The notes under the pieces were generated by a model. The model had not been told where the DNA came from. It saw nothing but the letters and a program-made list of their open reading frames with translations, and did no database searches. From the NCBI GenBank assembly GCA_002894665.1, contig NCRB01000030.1, forward strand, positions 1-36,491: a stretch of DNA of 36,491 bases, given 5' to 3'. Both the position numbers and the translations under genes were made by a program. The DNA is from Salinivenus iranica (lineage in GTDB: Bacteria; Bacteroidota; Rhodothermia; Rhodothermales; Salinibacteraceae). This document shows, piece after piece, positions 9,831-36,491 of this stretch; position 1 is the stretch's first letter; the number at the start of each line of letters is the position of its first letter.

Positions 9831-9940
9831 AAAGTTTTTGATCTAGTAAATTAATAAGCGTAACACCAGTCGAACTATAAAAATATGAACAACATGAAAA
9901 ATGTAAGGAGTATGTGTAAAAACACAAGTGTTCTTTCTAC

Positions 9941-10500
9941 AAGCCGGTGCTAAACCCTCGTTTTTCAGACGAGCCGCTTTAGCCTTTATGTTCAGGGGAA
10001 CGAGATTTTGTGCAGAGAGCGAGTTCCCCTGGAGAACCGATGAGCAAATACCGGTGCGGTGCCCATACGATGTACGAGATCAAGTATCATCTGGTATGGG
10101 TGAAGAGGGACCGGCATCAAGTACTGACGGGGGAGGTGGCCCATCGGGCCCGCGCGTTGGTTCGGCAGACATGCCTCATCAGTCTGGACGTACGGATCGA
10201 AAAGGGGCTTGTGAGCAACATGTGCATAAATCCTCCGGCCGTCAGTCCTTCAAAATTGATGCAGAGGATAAAAGCTCGGTCGTCGCAAAATCTGCTGCAG
10301 GAGATTTCCATCTTCAGAAGAGGTATTGGGGAAGGCACTTTTGGGCCGGGGATAAATTTTTCGCGACGAGCCACCGGGTGACCGACGAGCAGATAAAGGA
10401 CTACATCGACGGTTACGACGAGAAGCCGGCCGATCCGGAGTTTGCGATAGACTAATGACTCTTTAGCCGGCTTTTAGCCGGATAACGACCCCCCAACTTC
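9941..10500 (+). mobile_element. Decayed IS200/IS605-type element
   Basis: Both ends keep foldbacks typical of Y1-transposase elements. At the left, GCTAAA (9949-9954) and CTCGT (9957-9961) pair with ACGAG (9969-9973) and TTTAGC (9978-9983). At the right, CCGGC (10467-10471) and GCCGG (10477-10481) close a five-base loop. The transposase between them is broken (next entry). The element is GC-richer than the glycosyltransferases on both sides. Outer limits are approximate. Confidence 0.7.
10040..10455 (+). pseudogene. tnpA: IS200-like Y1 transposase TnpA, multiply frameshifted
   Basis: From ATG 10040 the frame starts as an IS200 transposase (MSKYRCGAHTMYEIKYHLVW, then VLTGEVAHRARALVRQ). The HUH motif (HVH, about 10220) lies in a different frame. 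The next block (PPAVSPSKLMQRIKARSSQ) is back in the first frame, and the C-terminal part (LQKRYWGRHFWAG, then TDEQIKDYIDGYDE) is again in the other frame, ending at 10455. At least three frame changes are needed, and the stretch around the HUH motif is shortened. The catalytic tyrosine region cannot be assembled into one product, so the gene is dead. Confidence 0.75.
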
Positions 10501-29667: not shown

Positions 29668-31029
29668 ATGTCTCTTTTAAGCTCAGAGAAGGAACCGGCG
29701 ACGGATGTAGTATCGACAGAGCATCCGTCGACATCCGACCGGGGGAAGGATACCAAAACAGAAGGGCCAGTTCTGGTCTCCGTCCCGCTCCCTCCGGATC
29801 GGGTGATTCGGACACGGAAGGTGTGGTCAAAGCTGCTCCATGCGGCCGCCCTGCCGCTGATTGTGGGCCTTTCCATCTGGGCGCTTGAAGGGCAGTTCTC
29901 CATGGGCCTGTTTCAGCGCGCGTGGCCGGTGATGGCCCTGCTGGCCGTGGCGTACCTGACGGCCTGGCGCCTGAGCTCCTCCTTCGAACGATTTCCTTTT
30001 CTCAACCAGTTCGAGGGCGCGTTGGTGAGTGTGGGTACCACCCTGGTGCCGGTCGGGCTCGTCCTGGCGACACTGCCCTACTCGCCCATCAATACCCTGG
30101 CTCTCGTGGCGACAGGAGGGAGCATCGTCTGGTACCTGGCCGACAAATTCCTGCACCGGTACCGGATGTCCCAGCTCGTCGTCTTGCCCGGCGGCGTCAC
30201 GAGTCGGTTGCTCTCCATTCCAGAGGTGTCCGAAGCGAAGCGCGAACGACTCCTGTCGGGCACCCTCGACGGCATTGTCACGGACCTACACACGTCCCTG
30301 TCGGAGTACAAAGAGCTGTTGGCGGACTACAGCATGAAGGGGCTGCCCACTTACCACGCCGGGTACCTGTACGAGCTCCTTACGGCCCGCGTCCTTTTGG
30401 GGGCCTCGTGCAAGCGGAGCGTCGACGTGCGCAAGCGCCGGTACTACCCGTACGTCAAGCGAGGCATGGAGCTGTTCATTGTCCTGTGTACGCTTCCCAT
30501 TACAGGTACCATCGCGGGACTGACGGCCCTTGCGATCCGGCTCGAATCAAAAGGCCCTCTCCTGTTCTGGCAGGAACGCATCGGGCGCAACGGCGAACGA
30601 TTCCAGATGGTGAAGTTTCGGAGCATGTACGCCGGCAACGAGGGGGAGGACGACGATGTCTTTGCGGAGGAGGGAGACGATCGGGTGACGACTGTGGGCC
30701 GCATCATCCGAAAGCTTCGCATCGACGAGCTTCCGCAGTTCTGGAACGTGCTGAAGGGAGAGATGAGCCTGATTGGGCCTCGGCCCGAGCAGGTGGGCCT
30801 CGCGGAGGACTTTTCCGATGAGATTAAACTCTACGAATACCGTCATCTGGTGCGGCCAGGCATCACGGGGTGGGCCCAGGTGCTCCACGGGTACGCCGCC
30901 GATGAAGATGAGACCCGGCGCAAGTTGGAGCACGACCTCTACTACGTCAAGCACCAGTCGGTGACCCTGGACCTTCTGATTGTATACCTGACGGCAAAAA
31001 CGATTCTCACGGGGTTTGGCGCCCGGTAG
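29668..31029 (+). CDS. Polyprenyl-phosphate sugar-1-phosphate transferase (initiating, WcaJ/WbaP family)
   Basis: Starts glycan assembly by moving a sugar-1-phosphate from a UDP-sugar to undecaprenyl phosphate at the inner membrane. The 453-residue protein has a charged N-terminus, four membrane helices (about 52-70, 82-98, 110-135, 140-158) and a cytoplasmic linker. A further helix (about 270-290) leads to the catalytic domain: KGPLLFWQERIGRNGERFQM (about 295-314), VKFRSMYAG, LRKLRIDELPQFWNVLKGEM-type region with DELPQFWNV (about 354), SLIGPRPEQV (about 368) and RPGITGWAQV (about 396). The sugar cannot be decided between hexose and HexNAc. It lies 88 bases before a GalE-like gene. Confidence 0.93.
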   Translation: MSLLSSEKEPATDVVSTEHPSTSDRGKDTKTEGPVLVSVPLPPDRVIRTRKVWSKLLHAAALPLIVGLSIWALEGQFSMGLFQRAWPVMALLAVAYLTAWRLSSSFERFPFLNQFEGALVSVGTTLVPVGLVLATLPYSPINTLALVATGGSIVWYLADKFLHRYRMSQLVVLPGGVTSRLLSIPEVSEAKRERLLSGTLDGIVTDLHTSLSEYKELLADYSMKGLPTYHAGYLYELLTARVLLGASCKRSVDVRKRRYYPYVKRGMELFIVLCTLPITGTIAGLTALAIRLESKGPLLFWQERIGRNGERFQMVKFRSMYAGNEGEDDDVFAEEGDDRVTTVGRIIRKLRIDELPQFWNVLKGEMSLIGPRPEQVGLAEDFSDEIKLYEYRHLVRPGITGWAQVLHGYAADEDETRRKLEHDLYYVKHQSVTLDLLIVYLTAKTILTGFGAR

Positions 31030-31117
31030 CCCTGGAGGGTCCAGGGCTGCTGTTCGGTTGGCGCATCTTTCTCTCCAGTTCGCCTTCTTCGTATTCTGTT
31101 CTAAATGCTCTTCGTAC

Positions 31118-32080
31118 ATGACCATTCTTGTGACTGGTGGCGCCGGGTTTATCGGCTCGCACGTGGCGGATGCCCTTCTTGCCGACGGCCACGACGTGCA
31201 CGTCCTGGACAACCTGTCGACGGGCCGCCGGTGGAAGGTGCCCAGCGCGGCGTCTTTTTTCGAACGCGACATTCGCTCGGATGCTGCGGCGGAGCTTGTG
31301 GCCGAGCACGAATACGGCGTGCTCGTGCACCACGCCGCCCAGATGGACGTGCGGAAATCCGTCGAGGACCCCCGGTTCGACGCAGACGTGAACCTGGGAG
31401 GCCTGCTGAACTTGATGGAGGCTGGCGTCGAAAACGGACTGAAAAAAGTCATATTTGCCTCGACCGGCGGGGCCATTTACGGCGAGCCCGAGCACGCCCC
31501 TCAGACCCTCGACCATCCCCTTCGGCCGGTGTCGCCGTACGGCGTGGCCAAGCTGGCGGGGGAGAAGTACCTCCATTTCTATCGTGAGCAGTACGACGTG
31601 GAGGCAGTGTCCCTCCGGTACGCCAACGTGTACGGCCCGCGGCAGAACCCGCACGGGGAGGCCGGGGTCGTGGCGATTTTTGCGAACGAGATGTTGACGG
31701 GCGGCCAGCCGGTGATCTACGGCGACGGGACGCAGACCCGCGACTACGTGTTCGTCGGCGACGTGGTGCGGGCCAACCGGGCGGCCCTTGCCTACGAGGG
31801 GAGTGGGGTGTTTAACGTCGGAACGGGGCGGGAGACGAGTGTCAATGAACTGTTTCGCATTCTGCGTGCGGCGGCGGGGAGCGACGCAGAGGAAACCCAC
31901 GGCCCGGCTAAGCCCGGCGAACAGCAGCGAAGCGTGCTCGGCTATGAGCACACGACGAATGAGCTGGGCTGGGCGCCGCAGGTGGAACTGGAGGACGGGC
32001 TGCAGCGGACGGTCGACTGGTTTCAGGACGAGCTGGTTTCGTCCGACGGTGTGAGCGGGGGACGGACGGGGCGTGTGTAG
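31118..32080 (+). CDS. UDP-glucose 4-epimerase-like enzyme (GalE family)
   Basis: A 320-residue extended SDR with ILVTGGAGFIGSHVADALL (3-21), VLDNLSTGR (about 29), ASTGGAIYGEPE (about 119), YGVAKLAGEKY (about 145-155, with Tyr-x-x-x-Lys), RYANVYGPRQNPHGEAGVVA (about 172) and YGDGTQTRDYVFVGDVV (about 203). UDP-glucose or UDP-GlcNAc 4-epimerisation is the best guess. ATG 31118 lies directly before the Rossmann fold; the frame is open upstream but overlaps the sugar transferase. The last dozen codons (Gly/Arg-rich) run straight into the hairpin array and may be derived from a repeat insertion that replaced the original end. Confidence 0.88.
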   Translation: MTILVTGGAGFIGSHVADALLADGHDVHVLDNLSTGRRWKVPSAASFFERDIRSDAAAELVAEHEYGVLVHHAAQMDVRKSVEDPRFDADVNLGGLLNLMEAGVENGLKKVIFASTGGAIYGEPEHAPQTLDHPLRPVSPYGVAKLAGEKYLHFYREQYDVEAVSLRYANVYGPRQNPHGEAGVVAIFANEMLTGGQPVIYGDGTQTRDYVFVGDVVRANRAALAYEGSGVFNVGTGRETSVNELFRILRAAAGSDAEETHGPAKPGEQQRSVLGYEHTTNELGWAPQVELEDGLQRTVDWFQDELVSSDGVSGGRTGRV

Positions 32081-33480
32081 AGGTCCCTCCACGGGGGCGG
32101 CGGTCCCGCGTGCTGCCGGCAGGCCCAGGGAGATCTCTCGACTCCCTTCGCACCCCAGGAGTACTCGGTCGCGTTCGCTCCCAGCGGTCGCTCGAGATGA
32201 CCAGTATTGGAGGGGAAGAAGCAGCCCCTTCCGAATACACGTCATGTCGACCGGCGGCCCGACAGCCGGAGGCCCGGAGTGGAGACATCTCCACGGAGAC
32301 AGCACGTCCGGGCGCTTCCGGCAGGACCGAGGAGGTGTCTCGACTCCGCGCTGCTTCGCTCGACACGACCAAGGGTCGAACGGGGAAGCGGCACTTCCCT
32401 CCGAAAATCCGTCGTGTCGACCGACGCCTCGACCCGATCGAGGCGAAGTGGAGACACCTCCACGGGCGGGGCGACACCAGTTGTTTTCAGCAAGACGGAA
32501 GAGATCTCTCGACTCCCTACGGTCGCTCGAGATGACCAGTATTGGGGGGGGAAGAAGCAGCCCCTTCCGAATACACGTCATGTCGACCGGCGGCCCGACA
32601 GCCGGAGGGCCGGAGCGGAGACATCTCCACGGGAACAGCGCTCCCAGACGGGTTCAGCGGGGCCTATGAGGTGTCTCGACTCCGCGTTGCTTCGCTCGAC
32701 ACGACCAGGATCGGGCCGGGAACGGCACGTCCGTTCGAAGTCACGTCGTCTCGACCGGAGCGGAGAGACCTCCACGGGAGCGGCGGTCCCGCGTGCTGCC
32801 GGCAGGCCCAGGGAGATCTCTCGACTCTCTACCGTCGCTCGAGATGACCAGTATTGGGGGGGAAGAAGCAGCCCCTTCCGAATACACGTCATGTCGACCG
32901 AAGGGCCGCCGGTGTGCGACCCGGAGCGGAGACATCTCCACGGGATCGGCGGTCCCAGACGGGTTCAGCAGGGCCTATGAGGTGTCTCGGCTCCGCGTTG
33001 CTTCGCTCGACACGACCAAGGGTCGAACGGGGAAGCGGCACTCCCCTCCGAAAATCCGTCGTGTCGACCGTAGTCTCGTCTTCGGACGAGACGGAGTGGA
33101 GAGACCTCCACGGGGGCGGCGGTCCCGCGCGCTTGCGGCAGGCCCGGGGAGATCTCTCGACTCCCTTCGCACCCCAGGAGTACTCGGTCGCGTTCGCTCC
33201 CAGCGGTCGCTCGAGATGACCAGTATTGGGGGGGAAAGAAGCAGCCCCTTCCGAATACACGTCATGTCGACCGAAGGGCCGCCGTCGTGCGGGCCGGAGC
33301 GGAGACATCTCCACGGGATCGGCGGTCCCAGACGGTTTCAGCGGGGCCTATGAGGTGTCTCGACTCGGGTCCCTCGCTCGACACGACCAGGATCGGGCCG
33401 GGAACGGCACGTCCGTTCGAAGTCACGTCGTCTCGACCAGAGGGCGGCCGTCGTGCCGCCCGGAGTGGAGAGACCTCCAC
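32079..33480. repeat. Array of sixteen alternating covarying hairpins (four A-B units)
   Basis: Each hairpin has arms GTC-RTNTC-GA and GA-GANAY-CTC; the opposite orientation reads GAG-RTNTC-TC and TC-GANAY-GAC. Orientation strictly alternates. Unit 1: 32130-32201, 32241-32291, 32332-32369, 32411-32460. Unit 2: 32501-32536, 32577-32627, 32668-32705, 32745-32772. Unit 3: 32813-32848, 32888-32938, 32979-33016, 33058-33108. Unit 4: 33149-33220, 33261-33311, 33352-33387, 33427-33477. The RTNTC/GANAY pair is ATCTC/GAGAT in each unit's first hairpin, ATGTC/GACAT in the second, GTGTC/GACAC in the third, and GTGTC/GACAC or GTCTC/GAGAC in the fourth. Only 33058-33108 has a mismatch. Linkers are nearly identical between units. 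No gene is visible. It resembles REP/BIME repeats, but is unusually large and ordered. Confidence 0.85.
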
Positions 33481-33577
33481 GGCGTCGGGGTCCTCGCTTC
33501 AGAAGAGATCAGAGAACCTGTCGTACACGGATTGCGTTCGACATCGCCATTTGTTTTCCAACCGTGCTCCCTATACG

Positions 33578-33877
33578 GTGCCTTCTACGAAGGACTTTCA
33601 GTTGCGCATTCCACGCTCAGTTGCCGACGCGCTGGCCCTTCCCGAAGAACGAAAGGGAGACGAGCTTCGGCGTGAGTTGGCCGTCACCTTGTATCGAGAA
33701 GACATGCTCTCTTTTGGGAAGGCCCGTGAGCTTGCTAAGCTGAGCAAGTACGAGTTCGGTCGATTGGTAGGCGAGCGATCCATCGAGCGTCACTACGGGT
33801 CTGAGGAGTTGGAGGAGGACCTGCGCTATGCATGGGGCGACAGTGATCGCCACGCCAACGAGGGATCGGGAGCGTAG
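33578..33877 (+). CDS. UPF0175-family antitoxin-like protein
   Basis: A 99-residue protein matching the UPF0175 pattern: FQLRIPRSVADALALPEE (about 7-24), RRELAVTLYREDMLSFGKAR (about 31-50), ELAKLSKYEFGRLVGERSI (about 51-69) and an acidic YGSEELEEDL (about 74). The central part is a helix-turn-helix-like DNA-binding region (GKARELAKLSKYEF). The frame is open into the repeats upstream, but GTG 33578 gives the normal length; TTG 33602 is another option. It is followed after 56 bases by a DUF3368 gene, the usual partner, so it is probably the antitoxin and autoregulator of a type II pair. Confidence 0.78.
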   Translation: MPSTKDFQLRIPRSVADALALPEERKGDELRRELAVTLYREDMLSFGKARELAKLSKYEFGRLVGERSIERHYGSEELEEDLRYAWGDSDRHANEGSGA

Positions 33878-33933
33878 GAGCCGGGAGGTGCGCCCTCCCC
33901 TTTCTTCTTCTCGCCCCCACACCGACTGTTGAC

Positions 33934-34422
33934 ATGTCGACGGTACGCAACACGTCGCCGCTGCTCAACCTCGCGATTATCGGCAGACTGGAGCAGGTCC
34001 GATCTCAGTTCGGACGCGTGTCCGTTCCCCCAGCTGTAGTAGAGGAGTTTCACCTTGGGGAGAATCGTCCTGGCTCCGCTCCACTCCGTCGGGCCGTCGA
34101 AGAGGAATGGATTGTCACAGAGGGCCCTTCTGACGACGCCCTTATTTGCACGCTTCGGCAAGACCTTGATGAGGGAGAATCCGAAGCAATTGCGCTTGCG
34201 GTGGAGCAAAAGGCCGACCGCGTCCTACTCGACGAACGGGAAGGGCGCCGCAATGCTCGGAATGTGGGTCTACACGTGACCGGTGCACTGGGAATTCTCC
34301 TCCGAGCAGATGAGGAGGGGGAACTCAGTTCGCTTTCTCGTGCTATCGACCAGCTGGAGGAAGAGGCAGGATTCTGGATTGGGCCCGATCTTCGGGAGCA
34401 AATCCTCAGAAAGACCGATTAG
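33934..34422 (+). CDS. DUF3368 PIN-like toxin
   Basis: A 162-residue PIN-like protein. It starts VRNTSPLLNLAIIGRLEQV (about 4-22, with Asn/Ser/Pro in place of the usual first Asp), has VSVPPAVVEEF (about 29), LDEGESEAIALAVEQKADRV (about 78-97), LLDEREGRRNARNVGLHV (about 98-115) and GALGILLRADEEGEL (about 117-131). The acidic residues at the E-G-E-S-E and L-D-E positions fit a metal-dependent nuclease site. These proteins pair with UPF0175 antitoxins and are thought to be RNases. Its stop overlaps by a few bases with the convergent Uma2 gene. Confidence 0.8.
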   Translation: MSTVRNTSPLLNLAIIGRLEQVRSQFGRVSVPPAVVEEFHLGENRPGSAPLRRAVEEEWIVTEGPSDDALICTLRQDLDEGESEAIALAVEQKADRVLLDEREGRRNARNVGLHVTGALGILLRADEEGELSSLSRAIDQLEEEAGFWIGPDLREQILRKTD

Positions 34423-35135
34423 TTGTTCGCAAGTCGCTCCACGAACGCCCGGTGATCCTCCGTTCCGGTGGCCGCCTGCACGGCACCAAGCACCGCCGAT
34501 AGGTCCTCGCCGAGGAGCGCCTCCACGTCCAGCACGAGGCCCGGAAGGGCGCGGCTCGTGAGCCGCCCGTCTGCGCTGGGCGACAGGGGGAGATATTCCC
34601 CGCCCTCCAGCACGAACCAGTCGACCCGCTCCTCCTCGATCTGCCAGACGACGTATTCCTGCACCCCGCTCCGGCGGTAGACCTGCTTTTTGTCGTGCAG
34701 GTCGTACGCCGCTCGCTCCGTGGAGCACTCGGTCGCTCCGCTCCCAGCGGAGCTGTGGGCGATTTCCACGATCAATTCCGGCGGGCCTTCGACGTAGTCA
34801 TCGTCGCTGATGCGGGACTGGCCACCGCAGTCCTCGTCGATGCGGAGGAGGGCATCCGGTTGCGGTTCATTGTCGAGGTCAAGACGCACGGTCGCATTGT
34901 CTGCAACCTGCACGCCGGGCGTGGCAGCCGAGTAGGTGCCGAGCCACGTCATGATCTGCGCGTGTGGTTCGCCGTGAGTGGTGGCGTGAACGGGCGAGGG
35001 CATGTAGACGGTGCCTTCGATGAGCTCAGCTTTTTTGACGTGGGGCAGGGCCTCGTAGCGACGCTCGAACTCGTCGCGGGTAAGGCGGTCGCCGTTGGCC
35101 AGAACCGGGGCAGTCGGAGACGAAGGGGACGACAT
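34419..35135 (-). CDS. Uma2-family PD-(D/E)XK nuclease-like protein with an in-frame repeat insertion
   Basis: A 238-residue Uma2-type protein of the restriction-endonuclease-like fold: RLTRDEFERRYEALPHVKKA (about 17-36), ELIEGTVYMPSPV (about 37), EPQPDALLRI (about 90-99), ELIVEIAHSSA (about 120-130), DLHDKKQVYRRSGVQEYVVW (about 145-164). P-D, E-I-A and D-x-x-x-K give the catalytic pattern. Between HSSA and AYDLHDK lies about twelve extra residues (GSGATECSTERA) where the family has none. They are encoded by 34711-34752, a copy of the ACTCGGTC...TCCCAGCG repeat. ATG at 35135 is preferred over the longer frame to 35186. The cellular role is unknown; Uma2 genes are often found as multicopy families in cyanobacteria and Bacteroidota. 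Confidence 0.82.
   Translation of the reverse strand: MSSPSSPTAPVLANGDRLTRDEFERRYEALPHVKKAELIEGTVYMPSPVHATTHGEPHAQIMTWLGTYSAATPGVQVADNATVRLDLDNEPQPDALLRIDEDCGGQSRISDDDYVEGPPELIVEIAHSSAGSGATECSTERAAYDLHDKKQVYRRSGVQEYVVWQIEEERVDWFVLEGGEYLPLSPSADGRLTSRALPGLVLDVEALLGEDLSAVLGAVQAATGTEDHRAFVERLANN
34711..34752 (+). repeat. Palindromic module inserted inside the Uma2 gene
   Basis: Reads GCTCCGTGGAGCACTCGGTC (34714-34733) followed by GCTCC...GCTCCCAGCGGAGC. ACTCGGTC plus CTCCCAGCG match the loop module of array hairpins at 32150-32187 and 33169-33206 and the copies at 4006-4028 (direct) and 4541-4578 (inverted). GCTCC/GGAGC pairs twice within it. Its length is close to a multiple of three, so the reading frame is kept. 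Confidence 0.6.
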
Positions 35136-35217
35136 AAGCGGACAGCAGTTTTGTATTGAGCTGTCGTGAAGAAACGGTCGAGGCAACGCCGTGATCCGCT
35201 TCCACTCTCAGAACGGA

Positions 35218-35385
35218 GGGCGATTGCATGTTGAATTTCTCGGGGCTGAACGGGTGGCGGTTCTCCACTCAGCCGACACATGCCTGAGGGTGGGCGAAGC
35301 GTCATTTCTGAACTCGATCAGTGGAGCACGGTGAAGAGGGAACGGACCGTTCTCTTACCAGAATTTGCTTAACATGCAATCGCCC
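35218..35385. repeat. Perfect 15-base inverted repeat in the divergent gap
   Basis: GGGCGATTGCATGTT (35218-35232) is repeated inverted as AACATGCAATCGCCC (35371-35385), 138 bases apart, with weaker similarity beyond (CTCTCAGAAC / TCTCAGAAC nearby). It lies between the divergently read Uma2 gene and the nucleotidyltransferase. It may be the ends of a small mobile element or paired binding sites for one regulator. No ORF of note lies between the arms. Confidence 0.6.
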
Positions 35386-35458
35386 TGTCTCAGAACGAAC
35401 GACTGGGCGGGAGAGGCGTTTTCCATACACCGATACTGTCATCACACGTTGGCTCATC

Positions 35459-35962
35459 ATGTCCCCCGCGCAGCAAAACCGACTGAGGGCCTTATTTGCT
35501 CGGATGGACGAAGTGGAGTTGGCGTATCTCTTCGGGTCTCACGTGCGAGGCGAAACCGGGCCGATGAGCGATGTGGACCTCGCCCTTCGCGTCGACCGGG
35601 AGCGGATGACTGATGGGGTTGCCCTACAGGCCCGGTTGGCACACGAAACAGCCGGTGTACTCGGGGGAGAAGATGTGGATCTCACGCTGCTCCGGCGCGC
35701 ACCGGTTGAGTTTGCGTACCACGTAATCGCGCACGGAACGCTTCTGTACCGGCGAAGTCGGGTCGCCCAGGTAGACTACGAGGCCCATGTGCTTGGCCGC
35801 TACGGAGACTATCTCCCCGTGCTACGAGCACAACGAGATCAACTCACGACCGAAACGTCCCATGACGCCCGAGTTCAGCGGTATCGAACGGCGCTTGGAC
35901 GAACTGAACGAACGCTTAGCGCGATTGGCTCCCCTTCAGGAGAAGGAGAGAACCGCGTTTGA
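35459..35962 (+). CDS. MntA-like minimal nucleotidyltransferase (antitoxin)
   Basis: A 167-residue protein with the nucleotidyltransferase signature YLFGSHVRGETGPMSDVDLA (about 23-42, GSx10DxD) and the third acidic strand at EDVDLTLL (about 71). In MNT/HEPN systems this enzyme adds AMP units to a tyrosine of the HEPN toxin and silences it. ATG 35459 is preferred; the frame is open to 35321. The coding region overlaps the next gene by about 100 bases, and the last 35 residues are probably dispensable. The pair is close to the HEPN partner, as is normal. Confidence 0.85.
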   Translation: MSPAQQNRLRALFARMDEVELAYLFGSHVRGETGPMSDVDLALRVDRERMTDGVALQARLAHETAGVLGGEDVDLTLLRRAPVEFAYHVIAHGTLLYRRSRVAQVDYEAHVLGRYGDYLPVLRAQRDQLTTETSHDARVQRYRTALGRTERTLSAIGSPSGEGENRV

Positions 35963-36293
35963 CGAGGACCCGTATCTGCGGGACATTGTCGAGCGAAATT
36001 TAGAGGTTGCCGCGCAGTGTTGTATTGACATCTGCAACCGGATTATTGTCCTGGAAGAGGCGCCAAAGCCGCAGGACTATTACGAAGCAATCCGGAGACA
36101 GGGTGAACTCGGCGTGTTGCCGCCCGAATTCGCGCGGTCGTTGGCGCCGCTTGCTGGCTTTCGGAATATTCTAGCCCACCAGTACTTAAGGGTAGACTGG
36201 GATGAGGTCTACACCCACCTGCAGCGGATCGACGAACTGAATCGCTTTGCGCAGCACATACGCCAGTGGCTCAGGCGTCGCTCTGAGAGCTAG
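35862..36293 (+). CDS. HepT-like HEPN RNase (DUF86, toxin)
   Basis: A 143-residue helical protein of the DUF86/HepT family. The catalytic motif Rx4HxY is present as RNILAHQY (about 107-114). The N-terminal helix and YLRDIVERNLEVAAQCCIDI (about 38-57), then YYEAIRRQGELGVLP and FARSLAPLAGF, are typical. The enzyme is expected to cut RNA unless AMP-modified on the motif tyrosine by the neighbour. ATG 35862 lies inside the end of the nucleotidyltransferase gene, so the two are translationally linked. After the stop comes a 198-base tail with one hairpin repeat and no further gene. Confidence 0.87.
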   Translation: MTPEFSGIERRLDELNERLARLAPLQEKERTAFDEDPYLRDIVERNLEVAAQCCIDICNRIIVLEEAPKPQDYYEAIRRQGELGVLPPEFARSLAPLAGFRNILAHQYLRVDWDEVYTHLQRIDELNRFAQHIRQWLRRRSES

Positions 36294-36426
36294 TCGTGGA
36301 TTTATTTTACGGGCGCGGCGCTAGATGGCGCATCGCGCAATCCAGTGAACATGTGCCGGGAGGTTGGTGGAGACGTTCCGCCGTGAGGAAATCTAAGTAA
36401 CGTCAATCGACAATTTGGGGCATGCC

Positions 36427-36476
36427 GTCATTTCGACCGGAGAGCGCCGAACAGGCGCCCGGAGTGGAGAAATCTC
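36427..36476 (+). repeat. Single hairpin of the array family (ATTTC/GAAAT variant)
   Basis: GTCATTTCGA (36427-36436) and GAGAAATCTC (36467-36476) are the arms, with an inner stem GCGCC/GGCGC. This is the fifth pairing variant of the family seen at 32130-33477 and resembles GTCATTTCGA-type repeats I recall from Bacteroidota genomes. The sequence on from 36477 starts a second part of the repeat but is cut by the window end. Confidence 0.7.
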
Positions 36477-36491
36477 CACAGATCCCGCGTA

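Follow-up and report, generated by a model that had tools for sequence, protein, structure and literature searches.

The stretch of DNA analysed here (the window, 36,491 nt of Salinivenus iranica, which is contig C56 of a 3.4-Mb genome) carries sixteen hairpins at 32129-33478 whose strand alternates strictly, as well as a seventeenth at 36427, and it raises the question of what kind of element builds such an ordered array and which enzyme, if any, serves it. The initial annotation had listed 17 hairpins on alternating strands with five paired arm variants and one mismatch, and our recount agrees with it throughout: ATCTC/GAGAT (4 copies), ATGTC/GACAT (4), GTGTC/GACAC (5), GTCTC/GAGAC (2) and ATTTC/GAAAT (1), with GTGTC opposite GAGAC at 33061-33108 as the sole arm mismatch (Table 1). 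A tag-plus-arm scan finds 15 matches in the window versus 2.35 in mononucleotide shuffles, and all 15 belong to these hairpins. We distinguish A-type copies, which read GTC-RTNTC-GACCG ... GTGGA-GANAY-CTCCAC on the plus strand and have the tag CGTC, and B-type copies, which read GTC-RTNTC-GAGCG ... GTCGA-GANAY-CTC on the minus strand and have the tag GGTC. Spacers within the array are regular, with 42 nt in all seven tail-to-tail spacers and 39-41 nt in the tag-to-tag ones. On its right side the array stops short of the UPF0175/DUF3368 gene pair.

Table 1. Positions of the hairpin array, its individual hairpins and neighbouring genes in the window
Feature	Position	Strand	Description
Whole array	32077..33500	.	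Seven tag-outward A-B pairs with a half unit at each end; about four tandem copies of a four-hairpin unit of ~330 bp
Hairpin 1	32129..32201	-	B-type, ATCTC/GAGAT, GGTC tag at right end
Hairpin 2	32241..32292	+	A-type, ATGTC/GACAT, CGTC tag
Hairpin 3	32331..32369	-	B-type, GTGTC/GACAC
Hairpin 4	32411..32461	+	A-type, GTGTC/GACAC, inner stem GCCTCGA/TCGAGGC
Hairpin 5	32500..32536	-	B-type, ATCTC/GAGAT
Hairpin 6	32577..32628	+	A-type, ATGTC/GACAT
Hairpin 7	32667..32705	-	B-type, GTGTC/GACAC
Hairpin 8	32745..32773	+	A-type without long inner stem, GTCTC/GAGAC
Hairpin 9	32812..32848	-	B-type, ATCTC/GAGAT
Hairpin 10	32888..32939	+	A-type, ATGTC/GACAT
Hairpin 11	32978..33016	-	B-type, GTGTC/GACAC
Hairpin 12	33058..33109	+	A-type, mismatched GTGTC/GAGAC, inner stem GTCTCGTC/GACGAGAC
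Hairpin 13	33148..33220	-	B-type, ATCTC/GAGAT, long middle
Hairpin 14	33261..33312	+	A-type, ATGTC/GACAT
Hairpin 15	33351..33387	-	B-type, GTGTC/GACAC
Hairpin 16	33427..33478	+	A-type, GTCTC/GAGAC, inner stem GGGCGGC/GCCGCCC
Hairpin 17	36427..36477	+	ATTTC/GAAAT, within a dispersed element of ~198 bp that runs off the contig end
NAD-dependent epimerase gene	31016..32080	+	Flanking gene; stop codon ~50 nt before the first hairpin
UPF0175 protein gene	33287..33877	+	Flanking gene; domain from ~33608, start codon uncertain
DUF3368 protein gene	33934-34422		Follows the UPF0175 gene

Further features of the window lie outside the array. A cluster of small genes at 33287-36293 encodes the UPF0175 protein with the DUF3368 protein, a Uma2-type protein and a nucleotidyltransferase/HepT pair, and a perfect 16-bp inverted repeat, AGGGCGATTGCATGTT, stands just before the nucleotidyltransferase gene (35217-35232 and 35371-35386, spacing 138 nt). 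The low-GC part of the polysaccharide region holds a divergent, apparently decayed IS200-like Y1 transposase ORF (9928-10455).

Read on the minus strand, the array consists of a four-hairpin unit in the order A (GTCTC or GTGTC), B (GTGTC), A (ATGTC), B (ATCTC), repeated in about four tandem copies with a mutual identity of 75-87%. Because the array is made of tandem copies of one unit, arm covariation within it represents a handful of independent events and not 16, so that the covariation claimed at first from this array is inflated there by tandem duplication, while across independent loci it proves real and strong (see below). The accompanying claim that inner stems differ between copies and stay complementary holds for some A-type copies (32414, 33061, 33430 and 36430), the inner stems of the other A-type copies being poor. 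When folded as single-stranded DNA, most A-type copies tested lack the outer arms in their best structure and fold into two hairpins, an inner one and one in the tail (GTGGAG-ANAY-CTCCAC), the A-type tail GTGGAGANAYCTCCAC being a palindrome that competes with the outer stem; the B-type copies tested do not exceed shuffled sequences in fold stability. Standard nearest-neighbour parameters may misjudge the GA/GA mismatch, and the case for arm pairing is the covariation across independent loci, not the folding energy. An array of four diverged copies of one unit is also what a passive repeat would leave, one that grows by tandem duplication and unequal exchange and has its arms matched by template-switch correction of quasi-palindromes, with no dedicated enzyme; one-arm-changed intermediates are rare, as template-switch correction predicts. 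We nevertheless hold this explanation to be unlikely, since it does not account for four results set out below: the association of one nuclease clade with such hairpins over many phyla, the decay of that association within 2 kb, the tag-defined boundaries, and the correlation between arm and nuclease similarity. Template-switch correction may, all the same, be how the arms are kept matched.

The window's hairpin type is not confined to the window. Pattern searches of the whole genome yield 84 copies of the 13-nt left arm GTCRTNTCGASCG and none when it is read backwards, although the left-arm pattern alone probably also matches, by chance, sites that have no right arm in this GC-rich genome. 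Arrays of the same type recur on C13, C18, C48, C54 and C70, with the four-hairpin order of the window kept in most of the C13 array and in parts of the C18 array, and two further arm types appear outside the window (GCTTC/GAAGC and GCCTC/GAGGC). The ATTTC hairpin at the end of the window is carried by a dispersed element of ~198 bp (ends CTAAGTAACGTCAATCG ... TTGATTGCACTTAG; window 36394-36491) with about ten copies, found in L041, L043, L045, L047, L048, L051, L052 and L054 in addition to the window, many of them lying where a contig stops; the right half of this element closes the C18 array. Congeners have 3-15 matches to the left-arm pattern, and the array expansion belongs to this species. 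Among these congeners, the copy number of AYTCC-arm hairpins does not clearly track the presence of a nuclease ortholog. The sister genome G001 matches the C54 site at one flank with 96% identity and lacks the hairpin-carrying stretches, and no array stands behind its epimerase gene; these comparisons are absences, not clean empty sites.

With respect to known repeats, the closest match is the class of CGTC-tagged REPs, described as families CGTC-1 to CGTC-4 by Di Nocera, De Gregorio and Rocco in 2013 (PMC3733652). Those repeats have a CGTC tag, complementary A-T first pairs and a C-rich tail, form inverted pairs mostly with the tags outside, are frequently heterodimers without an "obvious explanation", and "apparently lack a dedicated transposase" (PMC3733652). 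The window hairpins likewise have an unpaired (C)GTC tag at one end (the class tag being CGTC, or TGTC/CCTC), arms that begin with A-T or G-T (AT/GT) and a short C-rich tail (CTCC, in A-type copies CTCCAC); their inverted pairs have the tags outward, heterodimers are common, and they do not flank a tyrosine transposase gene. They differ in the GGTC tag of the B-type copies, a variant absent from the published list (PMC3733652), and in their stems: CGTC-1 to CGTC-4 have stems of 8-9 bp and loops of 4-5 nt, with exceptions noted, whereas here the outer stem has 5 bp, and a GA/GA mismatch and a middle that varies in length come after it. As the published stem and loop lengths do not fit, we place the window hairpins in the superfamily as a new variant outside CGTC-1 to CGTC-4. 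Unlike the published repeats, for which large ordered clusters are rare (PMC3733652), the window type forms such clusters, and one of its arrays, that on C13, has a GIY-YIG gene inside. Two other identities were rejected on reading the sequence: CRISPR, as the spacers are repeated and not unique, and integron attC, as the tag is not an attC box.

The initial annotation had also offered the term REP-like mobile array, together with a search for a co-occurring Y1/RAYT transposase. The term is right in kind, given CGTC-tagged palindromes that alternate, occur in several arrays and are absent at those matching positions of the sister genome that could be checked; the search for the transposase gave no co-occurring RAYT. 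Hairpins that alternate in inverted orientation are reminiscent of BIMEs and REPINs (PMC3116915), the genome has two Y1 genes, and an array mobilised in trans by a RAYT or an IS200-type tyrosine transposase would fit both observations. Yet both Y1 genes are IS200-like, one is decayed and neither adjoins these hairpins or lies near the arrays, and the tag is CGTC/GGTC instead of GTAG; we therefore reject a RAYT/IS200 origin as hardly credible. The likeness to BIMEs and REPINs with their RAYTs (PMC3116915, PMC2817692) extends to alternating inverted palindromes in arrays, an inverted pair as the dispersed unit and a cognate nuclease gene flanked by repeats; the difference is that a CGTC tag replaces GTAG and a GIY-YIG nuclease replaces the tyrosine HUH transposase.

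The candidate for that nuclease is encoded on C13 (1700-1996), enclosed by an array of the window's hairpin type, as a single-domain GIY-YIG protein of 98 aa (PF01541, 61 bits) that keeps the positions invariant among 19 relatives (Y10, Y21, G23, R31, E68 and N87). Of the four free-standing GIY-YIG genes in the genome, three have CGTC hairpins around them, and the arm type differs from gene to gene. Besides the C13 gene, these are the gene at C2:88583 (L058, 900-2300), inside a second array system of CGTC hairpins with ATCCCGG arms, and the gene on C42 (L059, 900-2300), between copies of a CGTC pair with arms GTCCCAAA/GCTCCAAG and a repeated tract of ~200 bp. The fourth, a YhbQ-like gene, has no CGTC hairpins around it. 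The window array itself contains no nuclease gene.

This association is general across bacteria. A hairpin was counted where GTC preceded an arm of six bases (or of five with GA after them) and the exact complement of the arm (or GA plus the complement), with CC or CT behind it, lay no more than ~80 nt further on. In this genome and 60 related ones, 37 of 49 close nuclease relatives have hairpins within 600 bp (109 hairpins), compared with 4/49 in reversed sequence and 4/24 for YhbQ-like GIY-YIG genes. For the 80 best nuclease matches from GTDB species genomes, which cover Treponema, Bifidobacterium, Rickettsiales, Planctomycetota, Chloroflexi, Patescibacteria, Bacteroidia, Clostridia and others, CGTC-tagged hairpins lie within 300 bp of the gene in 72 loci (reversed control, 1/80), so that a gene among repeat copies, as on C13, is the general arrangement. 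This set holds 252 hairpins, with 59 loci having hairpins on both sides, and the hairpins nearest the gene have their tags outward in 36 of these 59 and inward in 7. Hairpin density per 250 bp is 1.46 beside the gene, drops to 0.27 one bin further out and reaches 0.04 at 2 kb, the distant bins serving as an internal control within the same genomes. We also observe, in the hairpins of L133-L211, that most CGTC hairpins across phyla keep a GA on each side of the variable stem (a tandem G-A mismatch), and that a GCGAAGC core is frequent.

Arm covariation was measured on 150 distinct hairpins from nuclease loci, in which GTCAT...GA and GA...ATC(T or C) were required and three positions left free. 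Watson-Crick pairs occupy the free positions in 145, 141 and 142 of the 150 hairpins, the first being the most variable pair and presenting all four pair types, versus means of 54, 75 and 72 (maxima 74, 95 and 90) with shuffled partners. Arm distance tends to fall as nuclease identity rises (Mantel r = −0.214, P = 0.001, 72 loci); the loci are related by descent, and neither the covariation count nor the Mantel correlation amounts to a full phylogenetic test. G-T combinations make up 6 of the 450 free pair cells (~1%), which bears on the proposal, raised from the sequence at the outset, of a conserved structured transcript. The array lies between same-strand genes shortly after a stop codon, a placement common for REPs (PMC3733652), and, if transcription of the epimerase operon ran on into it, could stabilise the mRNA or terminate it. 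Such an RNA would be expected to tolerate G-T (that is, G-U) steps more often than is seen, the Rfam search returned no family above its gathering score, by which a known structured RNA is rejected, and the array is missing behind the sister epimerase; we do not favour an RNA element and consider it quite improbable.

The arms also follow a rule between neighbours. Across the 80 loci, the five-base arm is shared by 304 of 347 same-orientation pairs (88%) and by 44 of 449 inverted pairs (10%), a contrast that none of 1,000 permutations of orientation within loci reached (P = 0.001). In the genome that holds the window the corresponding counts are 51/138 and 15/155. The effect is weaker in related genomes (43/62 and 40/87), and the rule that neighbours differ is not universal, because inverted hairpins share arms there in 46% of pairs.

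The unit that disperses is best seen in G046. Nine tag-outward pairs scattered through this genome have an internal identity of 74%, and the unaligned flanks drop to 41-47% identity over the nearest 8 nt and to 22-30% farther out, so that homology stops at T|GTC and GAC|A. Dispersed copies bounded by a tag at each end, and arrays specific to the species, have the look of mobile DNA. They stand against the view that the repeats serve the nuclease as targets or markers, spread by selection or hitch-hiking and used, for example, to limit uptake or integration of foreign single-stranded DNA. Support for target sites comes from Neisseria, in which a GIY-YIG nuclease of this kind is said to act on repeats and to modulate natural transformation. 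We judge this view somewhat unlikely, and the association itself could also arise if the nuclease had the repeats as regulatory or immunity-like targets and not as cargo, which counts against a mobile-element reading.

A 2025 paper in Nature Communications reportedly describes "Ssn" (site-specific single-stranded) GIY-YIG nucleases that cut specific single-stranded repeats, first in Neisseria, and is said to report part of the nuclease-repeat pairing. These are reportedly also small single-domain GIY-YIG proteins whose genes lie among copies of a genomic repeat that matches them; our case differs in that the nuclease is tied to CGTC REPs generally and tag-outward units are the dispersed form. 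Should that paper already establish such pairing in general, our finding of it would repeat known work, and what would still be new is the ordered variant of the array, the tie to the CGTC REP class, the tag-defined unit and the neighbour rule.

Taken together, we read the array, with a probability of about 0.7, as a cluster of CGTC-tagged miniature elements in which the tag-outward hairpin pair is the working unit and which is served by a GIY-YIG nuclease, nuclease action and mobilisation being the parts that we infer. On single-stranded DNA, whether of the lagging strand or entering during transformation, the nuclease would recognise the tag together with the five-base arm and the GA/GA mismatch, and would cut at or near the tag. 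Repair or re-insertion could then carry tag-outward pairs to new intergenic sites; alternatively to such spread, in-place amplification by unequal exchange could yield the four-hairpin tandem unit of the window, whose array would be a non-autonomous cluster served from C13. Arms may covary because each hairpin must match itself for recognition, and inverted neighbours may stay different because fusion into one long palindrome is thereby avoided. Several observations count against this explanation, namely the GGTC tag of the B-type copies, the outer stem disfavoured by folding in most A-type copies, the 15 left-arm pattern matches in G006, a genome without a close relative of the nuclease, and a sister-genome comparison that gives no clean empty site. 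More tentatively, and as a possibility well short of probable, CGTC-tagged palindromes at large might be a widespread class of miniature elements that owe their mobility to a single-domain GIY-YIG nuclease, not to an HUH/tyrosine transposase, with the tag-outward pair as the mobile unit and arms that match themselves and mismatch their neighbours.

A GIY-YIG gene among CGTC palindromes in most genomes examined is a candidate for the enzyme that maintains or moves these repeats. If this is true, a second, chemically different class of enzyme would serve one repeat superfamily as RAYTs serve another, and the nuclease link, together with the joint variation of arm and protein, places the question of maintenance and movement within reach of a few oligonucleotide assays.
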